Source: an uncultured Ignavibacteriota bacterium
Lineage (GTDB): Bacteria; Bacteroidota; Ignavibacteria; UBA10030; UBA8401
Assembly (NCBI GenBank): GCA_903861125.1
Contig: CAIOTF010000018.1
Location: 1 to 64,000 of the forward strand
Direction: 5' to 3'
DNA: 64,000 nt
The number at the start of each line of letters is the position of its first letter. Position 1 is the stretch's first letter. Position numbers and translations under genes: made by a program. This document shows, in pieces, positions 15,922 to 64,000 of the stretch. Under the pieces are notes generated by a model. The model made no database searches, was not told where the DNA came from, and saw only the letters and a list, made by a program, of their open reading frames with translations.

Positions 15922-16641
15922 TCATTCGTTCCCAACCATCCAACTCAAAGCAATAATCGCAGCGGTTTCGGTCCGTAATCTTCTTCTGCCTAACGACACT
16001 TGAGTAAAAGCTGCTTTCTCTGCCATTTTTACTTCATCATCCGTAAACCCACCTTCAGGACCTATCAGGATCAATGCAGACCGGGGCGGTTTGCGGTGTT
16101 TCAACGCCTCAGCAATGAACAGCACATGGTCAGTACGTTCATAGGGAATCAATTTCACGTCATAGCCGGCAGCATCGGCAATAACACTTTCAAGATTAGC
16201 CGAGGGTGTAATTTTGGGAAGGATGCATCGTCCCGATTGTTTCATGGCGGCGAGCGCAATATTATTCCAGCGGTCTTCTTTCGCAGAACGTGCGATCGTT
16301 CGCTCGGTCTGCAACGGTATAACCGTCCTCACGCCTAACTCCGTTGCTTTCTCGATGATCCAATCCATCCGTGACGGATTTTTCAATTGTGCAACAGCAA
16401 GTGTAACATCGATATCCGGTTCGTGCAGATGATGATGCTCGTAGAGGATCTCGCATTCGATCATTTCCGGTGCAACAAGCCGGATGACAACTTCGTACGC
16501 TTTTCCTGCGCCGTCAACAACCCAAATTCGGTCACCGGGCTGTTTGCGAAGCACTCGGGAAATATGTTTCGCTTCATCCCCTTCGATAGCGATGTGCTGA
16601 TCAATGATAAATTCAGCGGGAACGTAAAAATATTCACTCAT
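15922..16641 (-). CDS. rsmE: 16S rRNA (uracil-1498-N3)-methyltransferase
   Basis: 239 residues, the usual size for this SPOUT-class enzyme, which methylates U1498 of 16S rRNA using S-adenosylmethionine. An N-terminal PUA-like domain (about 1-70) is followed by the knotted SPOUT domain. That domain carries the conserved ILIGPEGGFTDDEV and SLGRRRLRTETA segments that form the SAM-binding trefoil knot. It lies 19 nt downstream of the Omp85-like gene on the same strand. Confidence 0.94.
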   Translation of the reverse strand: MSEYFYVPAEFIIDQHIAIEGDEAKHISRVLRKQPGDRIWVVDGAGKAYEVVIRLVAPEMIECEILYEHHHLHEPDIDVTLAVAQLKNPSRMDWIIEKATELGVRTVIPLQTERTIARSAKEDRWNNIALAAMKQSGRCILPKITPSANLESVIADAAGYDVKLIPYERTDHVLFIAEALKHRKPPRSALILIGPEGGFTDDEVKMAEKAAFTQVSLGRRRLRTETAAIIALSWMVGNE

Positions 16642-55135: not shown

Positions 55136-55393
55136 TCACCGCTTCAAATGCGGCGGCTGGAATCCGCGGTACGTGTCGAACTGTGAATCGTAAAAGACAA
55201 GATTAAAGTTACTATCGCGCAACGTTCCTCCCGATGGATACAGGTAGAACTCAGAAAGATTCTCCGTCTTTGTTTTGGCAAGCAATCCTCCGGCCGTATA
55301 AAATTTCACCGTATAAAATCCCTGTGTGTACGGCGCCGAACGCAGCTGTTGGTGGAGATTAGCTTCAGTGAAGATAAAAATATCGCCGTTCAT
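55136..55393 (-). CDS. Small conserved-looking protein of unknown function
   Basis: 85 residues, not recognised. It is rich in aromatic residues and β-prone (GFYTVKFYTAGGLL, FYLYPSGG, NLVFYDSQFDTYRGF), with no signal peptide or membrane segment. A good ribosome binding site GGGGAGAG precedes the ATG, and the start overlaps the GroES-like stop by 4 nt (ATGA). This coupling argues that it is real and works with, or is made at the same level as, the GroES-like protein. Confidence 0.62.
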   Translation of the reverse strand: MNGDIFIFTEANLHQQLRSAPYTQGFYTVKFYTAGGLLAKTKTENLSEFYLYPSGGTLRDSNFNLVFYDSQFDTYRGFQPPHLKR

Positions 55394-55788
55394 TCTCTCC
55401 CCTGTCCGATTCCCAATTCAGCTAACGTATCCGGACGAAGAAGCATCAGCAGGTGCGATTGCTGCACGATCAGATATTGTTTTCCTTCAAATTCAATTTC
55501 GATCGCTGCATCGCGGAGAAACAGCGCATAATCACCCTCTTCTGCTTGCAACGGAATATATTTTACGGGATCTTTCGGTGCCGACCACGATTCCTGATCC
55601 ATAAAACTCGGATTAACCACCGGATATCCGGGACCGGCTTTGATGATGTAGCCTGCCTGTACTTTATCCTTCTCCTTCACACCCGGAGGAAGATACAAAC
55701 CATGAGGGGTTTTATCCTGTCCTTTATCAGGTTCGATTAGGATGCGGTCGCCGACCAGGAATATTTTTTTCTTTAACGAAAGTGTCAT
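55390..55788 (-). CDS. GroES-family co-chaperonin-like protein
   Basis: 132 residues from the chosen ATG; canonical GroES is about 95. The start FLVGDRILIEPDKGQDKTPHGLYLP resembles the GroES opening (V-x-P-L-x-D-R-V), with the mobile-loop region around KTPHGLYLPPG. An insertion (about residues 55-80, PSFMDQESWSAPKDP) separates the β-strands EEGDYALFLRDAAIEIEFEGKQYLIV. No groEL is adjacent. ATG at 55788 has GGAG 6 nt upstream; the longer frame from TTG at 55839 has no signal. Confidence 0.75.
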   Translation of the reverse strand: MTLSLKKKIFLVGDRILIEPDKGQDKTPHGLYLPPGVKEKDKVQAGYIIKAGPGYPVVNPSFMDQESWSAPKDPVKYIPLQAEEGDYALFLRDAAIEIEFEGKQYLIVQQSHLLMLLRPDTLAELGIGQGRE

Positions 55789-55860
55789 ACCAACTCCGCA
55801 CAAATATACGAAGTTTTTCTCTTTCTCCAACGTGCTCAAAGTATCTTTCGGGGAGGGGAG

Positions 55861-55914
55861 AAAAAAAACTCCGTCGCACCCGATTCAAGACTGTATGAAC
55901 GGGAGACGACGGAG
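55861..55914 (-). terminator. Intrinsic terminator of the cytochrome operon
   Basis: On the minus strand CTCCGTCG pairs with CGACGGAG, with an inner CCCG/CGGG pairing, and is followed by eight T. It lies 40 nt after the oxidoreductase stop, so it marks the 3' end of the five-gene multiheme operon. Confidence 0.82.
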
Positions 55915-55954: not shown

Positions 55955-57253
55955 TTACATTTGCTGTGTGTGCATCTCTATTCCGATCTTTTTAAGGAAG
56001 TCGAACGGCAGTTCACCGCCGGCAAAGACAAAGACATAATCATTGGGAATTTCCTTATCCCCTTCGGAAGTCGAAATCACAACGGAATTTTCACGTATCT
56101 CTTTCACATCGGAACTGAAAATGGTTGAGATCTGTTTCCTTTGCGAATACTCCTCAATATGCTGTTTATTGCGCTCTTTAATGCGGGTAAATTCCTCTTT
56201 CCGGTACGACAGCGTCACCGTATTTCCTTTTTGGATCGCAAGACCAACGGCCGCTTCGATGGCGGAATCACCCCCGCCGACCACAAGCAAATTGTTATTA
56301 TTGAATTGTGACGCATCAATAAGTTTATACATCACTTTCGACAGATCTTCCCCCTGAACATTTAGTTTCCGCGGGGTACCGCGCCGTCCGAGGCCCAGCA
56401 CAACACGTGCAGCCGTCATCGTCCGCTGAGAAGTTGTAAGGATAAAATGGTTATCAACTTTTTCCACCGCCAAGACTTTTTCGTTAACGGATATGTTCAG
56501 TGTGGCGTGAGCAATGATCTTTTGCCATACTTCCAGCAGCGCTTCCTTCCTCACTTCCGTTAACTTCAATTTGCCCCACAACGGCAATTCGACCGGAGAT
56601 GTCATAACGATCTTTGCGCGCGGGAAATGCAGAATTGCACCGCCGATGTCACTCTGTTCAATAATGATGGATTTCAGATTCAATGATTTTGCCATCAGTC
56701 CTGAAGCCAAACCGGATGGACCCGCACCGACGACGACAATATCATAATCAGCTGTATGGGGAGATAATTTTGAAGCGATATATTCTACGGCAGCCTTCCC
56801 TTGTGTAACCGCATTTTTGATCAATCCGATACCGCCCAGTTCACCAACAATGAATACTCCGGGCACGCTCGTTTCATAATGTTCATCCAGAACCGGAACG
56901 CCGGCGCTCCGGCTTGGTTTTGCCGGAAGCAATTCAATGGCACCCACAGGACATGCATCGGCGCATAATCCGTGTCCGACACATTTTGCTCCGTGTATCA
57001 GCGCCGCCTTCATATCAATGATAGCGATGACATCGCCCTCCGGACAGACATTCACGCACCCTCCGCATCCCAAACAATTGGTGACATCGATATGGGGATG
57101 CATTGTGGTCGCTTCATGCAGACCCGTCACTTTCAGTTCCTGGAATTTTTTTCGCGCTTTCGCTTCCTTTTTTTTCACGCCACGTACATACGGAATGACG
57201 GTGATCGAAATTAAAAGCATTGTTACAACCAGTGTAATCAGGGTTTCATTCAT
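55955..57253 (-). CDS. Membrane-anchored ferredoxin/FAD oxidoreductase
   Basis: 432 residues. An N-terminal membrane segment (about 4-25) is followed by two ferredoxin-type motifs. The first, CLGCGGCVNVCP (60-71), is complete. The second, CVGHGLCADACP, has His where the second Cys should be. A thioredoxin-reductase-like flavoprotein domain follows, with FAD loop VVGAGPSGLASG (about 176-187) and a second dinucleotide loop VVGGGDSAIEAA. It probably moves electrons between NAD(P)H and Fe-S/quinone or cytochrome partners. It is 6 nt past the porin gene and last in the operon. Confidence 0.85.
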   Translation of the reverse strand: MNETLITLVVTMLLISITVIPYVRGVKKKEAKARKKFQELKVTGLHEATTMHPHIDVTNCLGCGGCVNVCPEGDVIAIIDMKAALIHGAKCVGHGLCADACPVGAIELLPAKPSRSAGVPVLDEHYETSVPGVFIVGELGGIGLIKNAVTQGKAAVEYIASKLSPHTADYDIVVVGAGPSGLASGLMAKSLNLKSIIIEQSDIGGAILHFPRAKIVMTSPVELPLWGKLKLTEVRKEALLEVWQKIIAHATLNISVNEKVLAVEKVDNHFILTTSQRTMTAARVVLGLGRRGTPRKLNVQGEDLSKVMYKLIDASQFNNNNLLVVGGGDSAIEAAVGLAIQKGNTVTLSYRKEEFTRIKERNKQHIEEYSQRKQISTIFSSDVKEIRENSVVISTSEGDKEIPNDYVFVFAGGELPFDFLKKIGIEMHTQQM

Positions 57254-57259
57254 ACTGTT

Positions 57260-58885
57260 TTAGAATCGCATTCCAACTTCGGCATACACTCTGTAACTAT
57301 TCATCGTCGTGTCAAAAATACCGTCCACGGAAAGGGAGGTATACCACATTTTTGAGATACGGTAATAGAGATTTGCCGTTGCCGTTTGTGTTGTATAAGT
57401 CTGTTTTAGAGAAGTAATTGTGTATTGATAATAGTCGTAGCGCAGTGAGGCCGAGAGTGCATAGAAGAACGTCCGGTCAAAATCGATCGTATAGTTATTC
57501 CCGTCTGAAAATTCCCCTACGATACGCGCATACCGAACTCCTGCATTGATATCCGTGCCCAAAATATCGCTCATGCGCAATGATGTGCCAAGATTATATG
57601 AATCACGGGTGCTTCCCTTCCGCGTACGGAATGTTCCGTTAGTGGAAAGCGTGATAAAATACGGCAGACGGAATGTCACGTTGCCGCGGAATCCCTGAAG
57701 GATATTCTTATCGAAAAGCGTGTCCGACATTGTTTTCATTGTTTCAAAAAGATAGACGCTCCGTGATGCATCGTACCCGATACTTGATGTGAACCATTGT
57801 ACGGGATAATAATTAATGGTGAAGAACGTGTTGGATAATTTCAACGCACCTTTCACCACTCCGTTCGTGATATCATTCAATTCAAGTTCCGTACTTTCAT
57901 ACAGAGAAAGCTCGGGACCGAGCGACAATGAATTCTGCAGGTACAGAAATTCACGGTCGAGTCTGGAACTGACCATCTGGCGTCCATATGCAATCGTTCC
58001 GTCGAACTGATGGAAGAAATCGATTCCCTGCCGGTAGTTCAAAAAGAGGGAAGCTTTTGTTTCGTTGGTATTCACCGACAGGGACCTGTTGGATACCTGC
58101 GCACCCCCTAATACACCCGCTGTGAATTCGTCAAACCGGTAGAACATCTGGAACCCGTCAAATGTCCCCATACCGCCGACATAGCGGGATGTCATTCTGC
58201 CGAAACCGTAACCAAAGTCCTCTTCTGCAATATCACTCTGGAGCGTGAATTCATAGATGCGATGATTCACTCCCGATGATCTGCCGTACATTGAATACGC
58301 TTGTTTTGATTCGTAATAGCTTCTGTCGTAGAAGGAAAGGTTTGCACCGGTCCCGAGAAGATTCTGCACATCAAGCCGAATGACCGTTGAAGGCTGACTG
58401 ATATTAAAACGTGTATTTTCAGCAGCAATGTAATTGTACTGCACTCCTATTCTTCCTGAAACAATATCTTCTGTACTTTGAACAGGAACAGGTGGAAGAG
58501 ATTTCACCGATGCACCCTCAGTATCACGCCTGACCGTTACAGCAGTATCCTTCTTTACCGTTTCTTGTACCGCGCTGATCTCGATGATCTCTTTTTTTAT
58601 CACTGCATCATTCCCCACAGAAAACGGCGATTTCTGCGTTACGATCTGCGCAGCACTGGAACGGCGGGAAACGGCAGTGACGGCAACAGATCCGATCTCT
58701 TTTCCTGCATTGTAGATCTTCAGAGTATCACCAACCTCTATGCGCTGTTCCCTTCCCGCATCAATATAAACAACCGATGCCGCTACGTACGAAACCGCAA
58801 AGCGAAGCTCTTTTTTTGTCTGTCCGTTTCCGTTGACGGCGGACAGCAAAGCAACAATAAATATTATATTAAATATCTTCTTCAT
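57260..58885 (-). CDS. Outer-membrane β-barrel protein with SH3-like N-terminal domain (candidate porin of a cytochrome conduit)
   Basis: 541 residues. A signal peptide (about 1-22) precedes an SH3-like β-domain (about 27-95: YIDAGREQRIEVGDTLKIYN) and a Val/Lys/Thr-rich linker. Some 400 residues of alternating aromatic strands follow (INYYPVQWFTSSIGYD, ASLRYDYYQYTIT), ending in a terminal Phe (EVGMRF), typical of outer-membrane barrels. It sits between the decahaem cytochrome (7 nt before) and the oxidoreductase (6 nt after). In known porin-cytochrome systems a barrel of this size encloses a multiheme protein, so this is the natural candidate; no homology to a named porin is claimed. Confidence 0.75.
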   Translation of the reverse strand: MKKIFNIIFIVALLSAVNGNGQTKKELRFAVSYVAASVVYIDAGREQRIEVGDTLKIYNAGKEIGSVAVTAVSRRSSAAQIVTQKSPFSVGNDAVIKKEIIEISAVQETVKKDTAVTVRRDTEGASVKSLPPVPVQSTEDIVSGRIGVQYNYIAAENTRFNISQPSTVIRLDVQNLLGTGANLSFYDRSYYESKQAYSMYGRSSGVNHRIYEFTLQSDIAEEDFGYGFGRMTSRYVGGMGTFDGFQMFYRFDEFTAGVLGGAQVSNRSLSVNTNETKASLFLNYRQGIDFFHQFDGTIAYGRQMVSSRLDREFLYLQNSLSLGPELSLYESTELELNDITNGVVKGALKLSNTFFTINYYPVQWFTSSIGYDASRSVYLFETMKTMSDTLFDKNILQGFRGNVTFRLPYFITLSTNGTFRTRKGSTRDSYNLGTSLRMSDILGTDINAGVRYARIVGEFSDGNNYTIDFDRTFFYALSASLRYDYYQYTITSLKQTYTTQTATANLYYRISKMWYTSLSVDGIFDTTMNSYRVYAEVGMRF

Positions 58886-58892
58886 TCTTTAT

Positions 58893-59705
58893 TTATTCTG
58901 CCTGTCCTTGCGGATGGCAGCGATAACACGCCTGACTTTGATAGCTGTAATTACGGATACCGCCATGATGACTGTCCGTAGATGACTTGCTGTGCTTATG
59001 ACAATTGATGCACTCGAACAACTGATAATTCGATTGTGTTGTATGACAATCTCCGCACGAATTCCACCTGCCGGGGCTATGCCTTGCTCCGGCACCGATC
59101 GGAAAATAACTGTGCGGGAATAATGATGCCGGCTGCCACGTTAGCGCACGGTGACAAATTGCGCAATCGGGCGGAAACCTTGCCGTCAGATGATTCGGAT
59201 TATTGGCAGACGCATACTCTTTTTGATGACACGTAATACATTGGATCGGTGTTCCGCGAAAAATATTGTTTATATGACACGATGTGCAGGCTACAGCAGC
59301 ATGAGCTCCGCGTGTAGGAAACTGCGTCTTGTCGTGATCAAAATCCGTCTGCCATGATACGGCGGTTTGCCGGTGACACTGACTGCAATCTGTACTGAAT
59401 CCTGCGGTCCGGTGATTGATCGAGATCGCCGCATCATAATCCTTTTTATGACAAAAAATGCATACGGTTGACAATCCGACAAACTTCAACGACGTATGAC
59501 AATTTCTGCATGCCGTATTTCTATGCTGTCCTTCCAGCACATATCCCGTAGCGGCATGATCGAATTTCATCGGTGAAGAAAGTTCATTCCATCCTTCGGT
59601 CGAATGACAATCGACGCATTTCCACTGTATTGTACCGTGAGGTGACCCTTGTGAAAATAGTGACGAAACAACAATCAATTGAACAATGATAAATGTAAAT
59701 TTCAT
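58893..59705 (-). CDS. Decahaem c-type cytochrome
   Basis: 270 residues with a signal peptide and ten CxxCH haem-binding motifs (CVDCH, CRNCH, CIFCH, CSQCH, CTSCH, CITCH, CAICH, CGDCH, CINCH, CYRCH). Its N-terminus (SPHG...CVDCH...PMKFDHAATG) matches that of the 40-haem protein upstream residue for residue in its layout, so they are paralogues. Extra His in the pattern NPNH, FDH and GAH could be distal haem ligands. ATG at 59705 begins the signal peptide; the longer frame starts with TTG. It precedes the barrel by 7 nt, fitting a periplasmic or barrel-inserted role. Confidence 0.92.
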   Translation of the reverse strand: MKFTFIIVQLIVVSSLFSQGSPHGTIQWKCVDCHSTEGWNELSSPMKFDHAATGYVLEGQHRNTACRNCHTSLKFVGLSTVCIFCHKKDYDAAISINHRTAGFSTDCSQCHRQTAVSWQTDFDHDKTQFPTRGAHAAVACTSCHINNIFRGTPIQCITCHQKEYASANNPNHLTARFPPDCAICHRALTWQPASLFPHSYFPIGAGARHSPGRWNSCGDCHTTQSNYQLFECINCHKHSKSSTDSHHGGIRNYSYQSQACYRCHPQGQAE

Positions 59706-59798
59706 TTGTTTAGAACCACAGAGCAAAATAGTATTCCAGAATTCTCTTGTGGAATCATCAGAACAATTCCCGCACTATGACCTTTTACCGTATACCGT

Positions 59799-59829
59799 GT
59801 TTGGTTTTATCTCCACCGGCAGACCAAAC
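59799..59829 (-). other. Hairpin between the 40-haem and decahaem genes
   Basis: A perfect 7-bp stem GTTTGGT/ACCAAAC with a 17-nt loop overlaps the region just after the 40-haem stop at 59837. No T-run follows, so it is not a standard terminator. In the polycistronic RNA it could shield the upstream message or adjust the ratio of the two cytochromes. The 131-nt gap here is the only real gap inside the operon. Confidence 0.3.
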
Positions 59830-59836
59830 AAATCCT

Positions 59837-62824
59837 TTAATTATTGCCGGTTTTATTGCTGGGATGACACCCTGATCCAAGACAGCTTCTTGTTTTATTA
59901 TGTGCACCCGAATGACATCCGGTTGTACAGCTGAAGGTTAAAAAAGTACCGGGAGTAAAATGGCATTGGGCGCACTTAACAGCACTGTGTCTATTTGTTG
60001 AATATGGATACGAAGGAATATGATTAAAAGTCCATGGCTGCCATTTAATTATAGTTCCGTGACAGAATGTGCATACATGTGCAGTATTATATTGACCGGC
60101 AACGTGATCCGGAACTTTCGCTCCATTATAATCCGTCAGATGGCATACATAACAATCCGTGGTCGTCCCTTTATACACTCCATTTTTATGACAACTTACA
60201 CACGAAGCAGTAACGTGAGTGCCGATTAACGGAAACGCAGTTGTGCTGTGATTAAATGTCGCCGGCTTCCATGCCGTCATTGAATGACACGTTAAACAAG
60301 TATGCGAAAATTGCGATGTCACGTGACTCGGAGTTGCTGTAGCGTTAAAATCGGTCAAATGACAGGTGTAACAGTCCGTTGTGGTTCCCTTATACACACC
60401 ATTTTTGTGACAGTCTCCGCACAGAACGGCTGCGTGTGCGCCGAGCAACGGGAAAGCGGTATTAGCATGACTGAACGTAGAAGGCTTCCATACCGTTGTG
60501 GAGTGACACGTTATACAATCGTGCGAGAACTGCGCCGTTACATGGTTTGGATTTGTTACACCATTGAAATTGGTTTGATGACAGCTGTAGCAATCGGATG
60601 GCAATCCTTTGAATACGCCGTTTTTATGACATGACTCACACGCAAGAGATACGTGCGCTCCGACAAGCTGGAAATTGGTGGTAGCGTGATTGAAGGTTGA
60701 AGGCTTCCACGCAATTGTTGAATGGCATGTCATACAATCGTGCGAGAATTGCGCCGTAGCATGGTTCGGACTTGTGGTCGCATTGAAATTAGTCTGATGA
60801 CAACTATAGCAGTCGGACGACAATCCTTTGAATACGCCGTTTTTATGACACGATTCACACGCAACAGTTACGTGCGCTCCGACAAGTTGGAAATTGGTTG
60901 TGGCGTGATTGAAGGTGGATGGTTTCCACGCAATTGTTGAATGGCATGTCATACAATCGTGCGAGAATTGCGCCGTTGCATGGTTCGGACTTGTGGTCGC
61001 GTTGAAATTAGTCTGGTGACAACTATAGCAGTCGGACGGCAAACCCTTATACACACCATTTTTATGACACGATTCACACGCAACAGTTACGTGCGCTCCG
61101 ACAAGCTGAAAATTGGTTGTGGCGTGATTGAAGGTGGAGGGTTTCCACGCAATTGTAGAATGGCATGTCATACAATCGTGCGAGAATTGCGCCGCAACGT
61201 GATTCGGACTTGTGGTTGTATTGAAATTCGTTTGGTGACAGCTGTAGCAGTCGGACGGTAATCCTTTGAATACTCCATTCTTATGACACGATTCACACGC
61301 AACAGTTACGTGCGCTCCGACAAGCTGGAAATTGGTCTTTGCATGGCTGAATGTTGAAGGCTTCCATGCGATTACTGTGTGGCATGTAAGACAATCATGA
61401 CTGAACTGCGCAACAGTATGATTAGGCGCTACAGTCTTTCCAAAATCCTTCTGATGACACGAGAAACAGTCGCCGGGCAAACCGATAAATCTGCCGGCGG
61501 AATGACACGATGCACAATCGGCAGAAGTGTGAGCGCCAACGAGCGGAAAATTAGTCTTCGCATGGTTGAATGATGACGGCTTCCACCCGTTCGGTGAATG
61601 GCACGACACACAGTCATGACTAAGTTGGGCCGTTTGATGGTTCGGCGCGACCGCTTTCTTATAATTCGTTTGATGACAGGTGTAGCATTCGGTATTCAAT
61701 CCTTTATATACTCCCGACGAATGACACGAAGCACAATCAGCATTTTTATGTGCGCCAAGAAGCGGATAACTTGTCTTTGCGTGATCGAAGGTTGATGGCG
61801 ACCATGCAACCAGATTATGACACGCCAGACAATTATGATCGAACTGCGCTTTACTATGGCTCGGTTGTTTCACTTTATTGAAATCAGCCGTGTGACATGT
61901 GAAACAGTCTTTCGTCAACCCTTTGAACTGCCCTGTGGAATGACAGGATGAACATTCCGTACCCGCATGAGCACCAACCAGCGCAAAGTCCGTTTTACTA
62001 TGATCGAACGTGGCAGGTTTCCATCCATTGATCGAATGGCAGGTAAGACATTCGCGGGAGAACTGTGCCGCTAAATGGTTCGGCGTGACCACTTTCGCAA
62101 AATCCTTCTGATGACAGGAATAACAATCGGTCGGAAGCGCGGTATATTTTCCACCGGCGTGACAACCGGAACACTCGATCGCCCGATGCACGCCGACCAA
62201 CGGAAAATTAGTCTTCGCATGATCGAATGCTGCAGGCTTCCATCCGTTCATCGTATGGCAGGTCAGGCACGTATGAGTAAAACGGCCCTGAACGTGATTT
62301 GGTGAGATGGCACTTGTAAAATCCCTTTGATGGCAGTAAAAACAATCGTGGGACAGACCTAAAAATTTATTATTGGTATGGCATGAAGCGCAATCAACGG
62401 ACTGATGGTTGCCAGTTAGCTGAAAATTTGTTTTGGAATGCTGGAAGATCGACGGTTTCCACGCAGTAAGGGTATGGCAGGTAAGACACTCGCGCGAAAA
62501 TTTTCCCAGCTGATGGTTTGGCGTGAACGCCCTCACAAAATCCTTTTGATGACACGAAAAGCATGTTGTCGGGGTACCGGAAAATTTCTTTGTGGTGTGG
62601 CATTGAAGGCATGCAACATTGCCGTGCTGGCCATCCAGCGAAAATCCGGTCACCGCATGGCTGAATTTCATCGGACGCGCTAGTTCTTTCCATGACTTGG
62701 TCGTATGGCAATCCGTACAGGCGATGGAGAGCGGACCGTGAGGAGATTTCTGCGCATGAGCTGTGGAAAAAAGAGCAAACGTCACTGCAAGAACAACGAG
62801 CGTGCGAGAGACGATGCTGTTCAT
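59837..62824 (-). CDS. Giant multiheme c-type cytochrome with about 40 haem sites
   Basis: 995 residues. A signal peptide (MNSIVSRTLVVLAVTFALFSTAHA) is followed by 38 CxxCH motifs, then one CX3CH (CTTGCH) and one CX4CH (CLGSGCH). Most of the chain is a tandem array of a 73-residue unit with three motifs and four spare His (SPNH, FSH, FNH, GAH) suited to bis-His ligation. Around 60.5-61.4 kb the units are nearly identical at DNA level (219-bp period). It is probably exported and folded as a long haem wire in the periplasm or on the surface. ATG overlaps the previous gene's stop by 4 nt. Confidence 0.93.
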   Translation of the reverse strand: MNSIVSRTLVVLAVTFALFSTAHAQKSPHGPLSIACTDCHTTKSWKELARPMKFSHAVTGFSLDGQHGNVACLQCHTTKKFSGTPTTCFSCHQKDFVRAFTPNHQLGKFSRECLTCHTLTAWKPSIFQHSKTNFQLTGNHQSVDCASCHTNNKFLGLSHDCFYCHQRDFTSAISPNHVQGRFTHTCLTCHTMNGWKPAAFDHAKTNFPLVGVHRAIECSGCHAGGKYTALPTDCYSCHQKDFAKVVTPNHLAAQFSRECLTCHSINGWKPATFDHSKTDFALVGAHAGTECSSCHSTGQFKGLTKDCFTCHTADFNKVKQPSHSKAQFDHNCLACHNLVAWSPSTFDHAKTSYPLLGAHKNADCASCHSSGVYKGLNTECYTCHQTNYKKAVAPNHQTAQLSHDCVSCHSPNGWKPSSFNHAKTNFPLVGAHTSADCASCHSAGRFIGLPGDCFSCHQKDFGKTVAPNHTVAQFSHDCLTCHTVIAWKPSTFSHAKTNFQLVGAHVTVACESCHKNGVFKGLPSDCYSCHQTNFNTTTSPNHVAAQFSHDCMTCHSTIAWKPSTFNHATTNFQLVGAHVTVACESCHKNGVYKGLPSDCYSCHQTNFNATTSPNHATAQFSHDCMTCHSTIAWKPSTFNHATTNFQLVGAHVTVACESCHKNGVFKGLSSDCYSCHQTNFNATTSPNHATAQFSHDCMTCHSTIAWKPSTFNHATTNFQLVGAHVSLACESCHKNGVFKGLPSDCYSCHQTNFNGVTNPNHVTAQFSHDCITCHSTTVWKPSTFSHANTAFPLLGAHAAVLCGDCHKNGVYKGTTTDCYTCHLTDFNATATPSHVTSQFSHTCLTCHSMTAWKPATFNHSTTAFPLIGTHVTASCVSCHKNGVYKGTTTDCYVCHLTDYNGAKVPDHVAGQYNTAHVCTFCHGTIIKWQPWTFNHIPSYPYSTNRHSAVKCAQCHFTPGTFLTFSCTTGCHSGAHNKTRSCLGSGCHPSNKTGNN
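60512..61400. repeat. 219-bp tandem repeat array within the 40-haem gene
   Basis: At least four consecutive units are nearly identical. For example TCATACAATCGTGCGAGAAT recurs at 60730, 60949 and 61168, exactly 219 bp apart. Each unit encodes 73 residues and three CxxCH motifs. More diverged units with the same layout continue on both sides to fill most of the gene. The near identity points to recent duplication or ongoing homogenisation. Confidence 0.9.
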
Positions 62825-64000
62825 TGTTTGTCCGTATGACAGTCCGTGCATAAGAGCCCCAGTGGTTTATATTTGGTGATCTTTTTCCCATTCACAGTAT
62901 ATTGTGCATGACACTTCATGCATTGCACTCCGGCGTGCTTTCCCGTTAACGCAAAACGGGCCTGGGTATCGTGATTGAATGTAACTTTTTTCCATGATGC
63001 CGTGCTATGACATTTTGCACACTCCGTTACGCCCGCAAAGGCAAACTGTCCGTCGTGCTCATCGGTATGGCATGAGGAGCATTCCCTGCGAAGATCAGCA
63101 TATTTAATAGGAGAACCGTTCGCCGGTTTTTTGTGGCATTGCTCACACTTCAACTCGGCATGTTTCCCGAGCAGCGGAAATTTTGTTTTTTCATGCGAAA
63201 AGAGAAGTTTGTCCCACGCACTTACCGTATGACACGTTTCACACCCTTTCGTCATTATCTTTGCAAACTGACCTTTGTGAATATCCTGATGGCATGTTAG
63301 GCATTCAAGGTTTCCCTCCCAGTGAAACTTCCGGGTACTTTTTGCTTTCACTGCATTAGCGGTGTGGCATGCTCCGCAGGGAATGGCCGTATGTGCACCC
63401 GCCAGCGGAAACCGTGTCGCCTGGTGCTGCTGATATGCAAAACGGACAATCGTAAATCCTTCTTCGGTATGGCACGACTCGCATTTTCCCTTATCGGTAC
63501 GGTATAGGAACTGCATTGCATGTGCGTCGGAGTGACAGTTTGCGCACGCTTGAAATTTTGTCATGCGATATCCTATCTCTCCGCTTGCATTCACCCCTTT
63601 TGGGTTGGGATTGTGGCACTGCTCGCATTTGAGCTGCGCGTGTTTCCCTTTCAACGGATATTGCGTGGTCGCATGATCGAATTGTCCCTTCGATATTTTG
63701 TGAAAATCATCCGTAGAGTGGCACGCATTGCACTCCTGTTTGAACTTTCCCTTATGCGGATCGACGTGACAATTGCTGCAGGAAGAAAACTCCATCTTCA
63801 CAAAACGAACCGTTTTCCCATCTTCGAGCATCTTGTTATGACATTTCATACACTCTGTTTTCTGATGGCTTCCGGTTAGAGGATAATTTGTCCGGTCGTG
63901 TGAAAATTTAAGAACTGACTTCCACTGATCGATGGTATGGCACGATGAACATTCACGACCGGCAAACTGTCCTTTATGTTTATCCTCATGGCACGAGGAA
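62821..64000 (-). CDS. Multiheme c-type cytochrome, first in the operon (partial, N-terminus beyond window)
   Basis: The frame is open to the window edge, so at least 393 residues are present and the start is missing. Fifteen complete CxxCH motifs are seen (for example CNACH, CEQCH, CESCH, CLTCH, CMKCH, CTDCH), plus a sixteenth cut by the edge at SSCH. Its repeat differs from the 40-haem unit: it carries HKGQF blocks after CxxCH (DIHKGQFA, DEHDGQFA, KHKGQFA) and xKFPLLGKHAELKCEQCH segments. The TGA stop overlaps the ATG of the 40-haem gene, so the two are translated together. It is probably exported to the periplasm. Confidence 0.9.
   Translation of the reverse strand, partial: SSCHEDKHKGQFAGRECSSCHTIDQWKSVLKFSHDRTNYPLTGSHQKTECMKCHNKMLEDGKTVRFVKMEFSSCSNCHVDPHKGKFKQECNACHSTDDFHKISKGQFDHATTQYPLKGKHAQLKCEQCHNPNPKGVNASGEIGYRMTKFQACANCHSDAHAMQFLYRTDKGKCESCHTEEGFTIVRFAYQQHQATRFPLAGAHTAIPCGACHTANAVKAKSTRKFHWEGNLECLTCHQDIHKGQFAKIMTKGCETCHTVSAWDKLLFSHEKTKFPLLGKHAELKCEQCHKKPANGSPIKYADLRRECSSCHTDEHDGQFAFAGVTECAKCHSTASWKKVTFNHDTQARFALTGKHAGVQCMKCHAQYTVNGKKITKYKPLGLLCTDCHTDKQ

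Follow-up and report, generated by a model that had tools for sequence, protein, structure and literature searches.

The DNA analysed here, a 64,000-nucleotide window (positions 1-64,000 of contig C18, CAIOTF010000018.1) of the genome of an uncultured Ignavibacteriota bacterium, ends within a minus-strand operon that encodes multihaem cytochromes, an outer-membrane barrel and a membrane-anchored iron-sulphur (Fe-S)/flavin adenine dinucleotide (FAD) protein. With gene numbering carried on past the window edge, the operon comprises seven genes with 70 haem sites in total and very probably specifies a porin-cytochrome conduit of the PCC3 type, an assignment made on a published gene plan and its motifs. 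On balance we favour a trans-envelope conduit in which a Bacteroidota form of PCC3 is coupled, at its inner end, to a flavoprotein. This kind of conduit is already known; added here are the membership of the flavoprotein gene in the set, the pairing of two flavoenzymes with one inner-membrane protein (IMP) slot, and the quantised haem numbers of the cytochromes.

Operon layout and relation to PCC3

The host genome amounts to 4.19 Mb in 54 contigs, and the contig of the operon extends to 83,777. In order of transcription the genes, called mechanically throughout, encode the IMP, a TPR protein, the cytochromes CYT20, CYT40 and CYT10, the barrel and the Fe-S/FAD protein, separated by -35, -1, -31, 110, 7 and 6 nt and followed by a terminator:

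65059-66027, probable start 65937, minus strand, wholly past the window edge: IMP, a five-helix membrane protein identified by its motifs, without a Pfam family
64461-65093, minus strand, wholly past the window edge: TPR protein, CcmH-like (PF23914, 53.5 bits against a cut-off of 42)
62821..64000, minus strand: window part of CYT20, a 546-residue cytochrome with 20 CxxCH (whole gene 62821-64461); Cytochrome_C7 and Cytochrom_c3_2 matches in the window part
59837..62851, minus strand: CYT40, a 1004-residue cytochrome with 38 CxxCH, one Cx3CH and one Cx4CH, in 73-residue three-haem modules
58893..59726, minus strand: CYT10, a 277-residue decahaem cytochrome (10 CxxCH) and short relative of CYT40; start uncertain (TTG, with an ATG seven codons on)
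57260..58885, minus strand: outer-membrane barrel, 541 residues; signal peptide; 22 modelled strands, with a small N-terminal beta domain and a disordered linker
55955..57253, minus strand: membrane-anchored Fe-S/FAD/NAD(P) protein, 432 residues; one transmembrane helix (TM), two Fe-S motifs and a YpdA/thioredoxin-reductase-like body
55861..55914 (about), minus strand: intrinsic terminator closing the operon, from RNA folding and shuffles

The preliminary description of the window had reported a multihaem operon of five genes, and its three cytochrome frames (392 residues with 15 CxxCH, cut by the edge; 1004 residues; 277 residues) and the proteins of 541 and 432 residues that follow were all found on one strand; the total of five did not stand, as two more genes lie upstream past the window edge. 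Its gaps of mostly 7 nt or fewer apply to three of the four junctions among those genes (-31, 110, 7 and 6 nt), and the strong terminator was likewise recovered: CTCCGTCG...CGACGGAG followed by eight T, at about 55914-55861, folds as RNA at -29.9 kcal/mol (z -3.7), a value equalled by none of 200 shuffles, and was missed by a simple pattern scan. Among all stop-to-stop frames of at least 80 residues in the 64 kb, only the three cytochrome frames carry two or more CxxCH, a concentration far beyond chance; one further frame (15994-16338, plus strand) has a single CxxCH.

The PCC3 plan of He et al. (2017, PMC5566968) combines a barrel, a long cytochrome, a cytochrome of about 20 haems and a five-helix IMP of about 300 residues with two HX13H motifs and SGXXG, the latter placed on TM4 and the former, as WX3HX13H, on TM3 and TM5. 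The operon has the same genes (a barrel, long and periplasmic-type cytochromes and an IMP, their cellular placement being predicted), its IMP has five TM, SGXXG and HX13H twice, with Tyr in place of the first W, and CYT40 and CYT20 carry 40 and 20 haems at 25 and 27 residues each, set beside published medians of 34 and 21 haems and 22-39 residues per haem (PMC5566968). Its likeness to PCC3 thus extends to the barrel, the long repeat cytochrome, the roughly 20-haem cytochrome, the IMP motifs and the low number of residues per haem. The porin-cytochrome plan with long repeat cytochromes that had been proposed from the window is supported accordingly; the idea of a distinct, new conduit gives way, since the core matches the published plan; the IMP gene, beyond the window edge, was out of sight for the preliminary description.

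The operon differs from PCC3 as described in adding the Fe-S/FAD protein and the TPR gene, in having a pair of long-family cytochromes, of 40 and 10 haems, in the host genome, and in its barrel, modelled with 22 strands where predictions for most PCC3 porins give many, up to 42 (PMC5566968); the list of PCC3 hosts in the same paper does not include the host phylum. PCC3 clusters of Sideroxydans lithotrophicus ES-1 are Slit_0867-0870 and Slit_1446-1449 (PMC8788666), and outer-membrane electron transfer by PCC3 itself is described as unverified (PMC12442390).

Membership in MtrCAB or Hmc was rejected. MtrCAB and MtoAB have in common with the operon the general idea of a barrel plus multihaem cytochromes, but the DmsE/MtrA model TIGR03508, whose cut-off is 192.2 bits, reaches 49.9 with the window part of CYT20 and 20.8 with CYT40, and is not listed for CYT10; the barrel, which has no Pfam family at E 0.01 and no PDB sequence match at E 1, gives no sign of an MtrB/PioB-type porin, in keeping with the earlier impression that it is unlike the Mtr proteins. 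The HmcA model of the Hmc system scores 81.9 bits with CYT40 against 400. Linkage to nitrogen- or sulfur-oxide reductases had been named as a finding that would speak against a conduit, and family scans recognised no such enzyme among the seven genes. OmbB-OmaB-OmcB was compared through family libraries, in which the barrel has no Pfam or NCBIfam family. In open-licence literature, by titles and abstracts and supplements aside, no description of the set with a flavoprotein in Bacteroidota was found; unnamed novel porin-cytochrome complexes in Bacteroidetes (PMC6344600) and an Ignavibacteria cytochrome of 40 haems (PMC7399161) are mentioned, and both may belong to the same system.

Conservation and linkage of the flavoprotein and IMP genes

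The gene set stays together in relatives, as the preliminary description had proposed to check, and is not scattered. Among the named loci, which are the best 80 of at least 526 relatives and over-represent near ones, the Fe-S/FAD gene is present in 75 (71 by open reading frame (ORF), four more by tblastn), and the five remaining loci (L103, L106, L108, L109 and L162) end before its expected place; here as in the counts below, related sequences are not independent. Titles among the 80 include Ignavibacteria, Melioribacter, Kryptoniota, Saprospiraceae, Bacteroidales, Marinilabiliales, Prolixibacteraceae and a Chlorobiota bacterium. Locus L100 has the order of the operon itself (IMP, CYT20, cytochromes of 37 and 10 haems, barrel and Fe-S/FAD), the TPR gene going unrecognised by the script; TPR was recognised in 13 of the 80 loci, probably an under-count. 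In Maribellus sediminis Y2-1-60, genes for the IMP, the Fe-S/FAD protein, a 20-haem and a 46-haem cytochrome and the barrel stand in a row, and in Emticicia oligotrophica DSM 17448 the set, headed by a ResB/CcsA cytochrome-assembly gene, lies on a 100-kb plasmid record.

Of 395 genomes in the phylum, 39 match the IMP strongly (E below 1e-75) and two more only weakly and in part; 37 match the Fe-S/FAD protein at E 1e-100 or lower, a count that hangs on this threshold, weaker matches being unlisted. Each of these 37 also has a strong IMP: 36 carry both on one contig, within at most about 17 kb, and G289 has them on separate contigs. G136 and G380 are the two strong-IMP genomes that lack an Fe-S/FAD match at this level; G136:C56:46016-47135 is a decayed copy, with stop codons in its IMP and barrel matches and no Fe-S/FAD match at 1e-100. 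A search with the barrel alone found it in 35 of the 395 genomes at E 0.001, the last few weakly, and across the phylum it stays beside the long cytochrome. To judge by this linkage, the Fe-S/FAD gene is a member of the set in genomes of the Bacteroidota type.

Flavoprotein, inner-membrane protein and electron path

The Fe-S/FAD protein begins with its single TM, followed by many Lys and Arg, two Fe-S motifs and the YpdA/thioredoxin-reductase-like body, whose best PDB match is 7a7b (E 1.3e-47). All 31 sequences compared keep its FAD and NAD(P) glycine motifs, six Fe-S Cys and one His. This His lies in the second Fe-S motif, CxxHxxCxxxCP (residues 91-101, 31/31), where it replaces the second Cys of the ferredoxin motif, and at position 63, in the first motif, the 31 sequences have Cys (9), Ser (13) or Thr (9); a His may therefore serve as ligand in one cluster, while the other may often be one Cys short. 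As there is no Cys beyond residue 101 of the operon's protein, the disulfide of thioredoxin reductase is absent. The FAD/NAD(P) body is shared with the bacillithiol disulfide reductase YpdA, from which the protein differs by the extra TM and the two Fe-S motifs; with the YpdA model TIGR04018 it scores 180.4 bits, below the cut-off of 339.9.

In the IMP, HX13H twice and SGXXG are found in 27 of 27 relatives, together with the second W of WX3HX13H (27/27) and, less strictly, the first (21/27), and the four His are invariant also in a 39-row set. The motifs are borne by helices 91-109, 116-140 and 261-285 in a model of the closest named IMP (L100, 88% identical, from a metagenome-assembled genome (MAG) titled uncultured Ignavibacteriae bacterium, among the best 80 loci). 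If the invariant basic residues that follow TM2 mark the inside, each pair would have its first His close to the cytoplasmic face and its second close to the periplasmic one. Among PDB sequences the IMP profile gave a single match, at chance level. This pattern of two HX13H pairs on two helices is shared with two-b-haem cytochrome b and ferric reductase domains, and the likeness to the latter has been noted (FRD; PMC5566968).

Homologues of the IMP also occur on five proteobacterial plasmids (L182, L183, L184, L186 and L187) of Alteromonas (one of seven records read; L183, Alteromonas macleodii pAM1A3), Methylophaga, Methylocystis, Sphingobium and Acetobacter. They score 50.5-75.6 bits against the IMP profile and have HX13H pairs at matching places, with SGXXG itself in three of five and Thr for Ser in the other two. 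In all five, an annotated 2Fe-2S protein is followed directly by the IMP homologue and then by a cytochrome with seven CxxCH, so that the IMP likewise stands between an Fe-S flavoprotein and a CYT20-like cytochrome. The flavoprotein is of another fold than in the operon: the three 2Fe-2S proteins scanned of the five consist of FAD_binding_6, NAD_binding_1 and Fer2, a build that, on its domain content, is unrelated to the YpdA-like one. An Fe-S gene is also described as adjoining the IMP of one PCC4 subgroup, and other redox genes as clustering with related IMPs (PMC5566968). The main argument for the inner end of the conduit rests on this recurrence: two unrelated NAD(P)H-type flavo-iron-sulphur proteins go with one IMP family, and the IMP would therefore exchange electrons with the cytoplasmic side. 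Some plasmid modules contain DUF1622, and some lie beside hydrogenase genes or genes for copper, mercury or other heavy metals.

In the path that we propose, NAD(P)H in the cytoplasm would reduce the FAD of the membrane-anchored protein, whose Fe-S clusters would pass electrons to the IMP; two b-haems, bound by the HX13H pairs in TM3 and TM5, would take them across the inner membrane, and CYT20 would carry them over the periplasm; they would then pass the outer membrane through the barrel with a cytochrome inside and be taken outward by CYT10 and CYT40, while the TPR protein may assist cytochrome assembly. The host genome has cytochrome c assembly genes (three PF01578 matches, one with an internal stop). 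The preliminary suggestion that the operon also encodes an inner-membrane electron entry agrees with this, and direct feeding by NAD(P)H is plausible, if a little short of an even chance. In NADPH oxidases and ferric reductases a cytoplasmic flavoprotein feeds two transmembrane haems; by analogy, if the reading is right, the inner end of the operon would work alike, differing in that the IMP has no match to any Pfam family, ferric reductase included, that the parts are separate polypeptides and that Fe-S clusters take part. Outward flow is preferred because electrons leaving an inside-negative cell run down the membrane potential, as do those leaving through NADPH oxidases; it would let the cell dispose of reducing power, as a redox outlet, or supply an acceptor outside it, and by itself would conserve no energy. 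A fuller form of this proposal, which we put forward tentatively, is an NAD(P)H-fed cable that bypasses the quinone pool, with an NADPH-oxidase-like inner module docked to the CYT20 wire, an outer wire evolving by three haems, and the IMP as the socket that recruited two unrelated NAD(P)H flavoproteins.

Several observations weigh against a flavoprotein-coupled conduit of this kind. A fold search with the IMP model, built without haem and possibly wrong in its packing, matched no haem protein fold (best Foldseek E 0.4; helical bundles and ABC transporters among the VIA rows). Genome G380 has a strong IMP and no Fe-S/FAD match at 1e-100. Plasmid searches with CYT40 retrieved Emticicia only, the single record also found with the barrel, and Emticicia oligotrophica is an aerobe, so that anaerobic respiration need not be the use of the set. 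In addition, descriptions of the Sideroxydans PCC3 give four genes and no flavoprotein (PMC12442390, PMC8788666), which would mean that a flavoprotein is not needed everywhere.

This last point, as described for Gallionellaceae, also favours the possibility, a less likely one in our estimate, that the IMP trades electrons with quinones, as He et al. proposed for PCC3, and that the Fe-S/FAD protein serves as an additional way in for electrons of NAD(P)H or ferredoxin. Their argument is that the HX13H pattern resembles those of cytochrome b and hydrogenase cytochrome b subunits (PMC5566968); against it, the Fe-S/FAD gene is strictly linked to that of the IMP in the phylum, and an unrelated NAD(P)H-type flavoprotein adjoins IMP homologues elsewhere. 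An inward flow, from Fe(II), Mn(II) or a partner cell through the cable to an Fe-S/FAD protein making NAD(P)H or reduced ferredoxin, is improbable: PCC3 was found in iron oxidisers, and in Sideroxydans CL21 the IMP gene of one PCC3 copy is reported as up when iron oxidation is possible, but both PCC3 clusters of Sideroxydans ES-1 are reported as down on Fe(II), and transfer into the cytoplasm opposes the membrane potential. That there is no surface conduit at all, the cytochromes storing charge, as has been suggested for such proteins (PMC7399161), or detoxifying metals in the periplasm and the barrel being a transporter, is quite improbable; the heavy-metal genes near the plasmid relatives and the transporters, porins and ushers among the closest barrel folds are offset by a barrel that is kept beside the long cytochrome across the phylum and lacks a plug domain of the TonB-receptor type, and by the absence of any barrel or long cytochrome homologue seen in three of five plasmid modules compared.

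The barrel was modelled with AlphaFold2 from 48 sequences (mean predicted local distance difference test 85.3, predicted template-modelling score 0.67). Foldseek ranks pilus ushers first, and VIA-align returns TonB-type receptors, OprD-type porins and ushers (Z 15.9-18.7, root-mean-square deviation 4.0-5.6), matches of the model that appear to reflect barrel size only; an Mtr-type barrel is not among the 50 VIA-align rows listed, from which its exclusion does not follow, and the 48-row profile finds nothing among PDB sequences at E 1. As the Pfam scan and the model give no plug in the chain, the lumen could hold a cytochrome.

The electron donor of PCC3 is treated in the literature consulted as a hypothesis; the extra gene of the Bacteroidota form is a pointer to it and turns quinol versus NAD(P)H into a simple assay question for which Emticicia oligotrophica DSM 17448 and Maribellus sediminis Y2-1-60 are available as named hosts. 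If the route out does start directly at NAD(P)H, a means of disposing of reducing power would have gone unrecognised in many Bacteroidota.

Three-haem steps in the cytochrome wires

Between its end caps CYT40 consists of successive three-haem modules, most of them exactly 73 residues long, and the 40 haems and the 73-residue repeat that had been read from the window both hold, the spacings 32-16-25 recurring exactly; CYT10 shares this plan with fewer modules. Haem numbers were compared among proteins matching one of the operon's cytochromes at E 1e-30 or better, after removal of 28 of 205 ORFs (19 cut by an end, nine duplicates), and with the window's own cytochromes, which fit the classes, kept outside the counts. 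Of 87 distinct complete long-family cytochromes, 85 have 3n+1 haem motifs (Cx2-4CH), over a range from 10 to 85, the exceptions being L110 (24) and L123 (39); strict CxxCH counting leaves 74 of the 87 in this class. The CYT20 family falls at 2 mod 3 in 84 of 90 cases (among them 63 with 20 haems, 17 with 23 and one with 26; exceptions L112, L113, L121, L154, L075 and L081). A looser set (87/92 long and 86/93 periplasmic-type cytochromes in class) admitted fragments and cytochromes of other clusters, and long repeats in draft assemblies can be wrong.

Unit-by-unit comparison at the DNA level pairs CYT40 modules 1-6 best with modules 1-6 of L100 (75-81%), while modules 7-10 all pair best with its module 7 (74-78%) and neighbours among them are 82-93% identical to each other; the middle of the wire therefore grew by recent tandem duplication. 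Haem numbers are quantised because 73-residue three-haem modules are gained or lost. The periplasmic PCC3 cytochromes of Gallionellaceae, with 21, 24 or 27 haems, likewise differ by three, and the extracellular ones (10-18 and 26-35 haems) span more than one class (PMC10734462); that haem domains have been inserted or deleted in related Burkholderiales proteins, and gained or lost in multiples in Chloroflexi, has also been described (PMC7399161). Variability in haem number is hence already known, and a fixed three-haem step of the CYT40 family was not found stated in the literature consulted. The module offers a natural series of wire lengths, from 10 to 85 haems, for conduction work. CYT40 has no match among PDB sequences at E 0.001.

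The longest wire of the family, with 85 haems, is encoded in the Bacteroidota MAG Ja1_bin-1389 (L130:14014-20436), and 85 is the number that PMC5566968 gives as the highest on record. Among the cytochromes admitted by the looser set are those of a second cytochrome-rich contig of the host genome (G000:C45:1-21410; L060, L061), which encodes about ten CxxCH proteins with 3 to 19 motifs, a CxxCH-free 425-residue protein, a 9-TM protein and small redox-like genes, and is perhaps a quinol-oxidising or other porin-cytochrome cluster. Just beyond the terminator of the operon, on the same strand, lies a gene for a 149-residue protein with a Cpn10 (GroES) match (55390-55839), followed by an 85-residue frame without a Pfam family.

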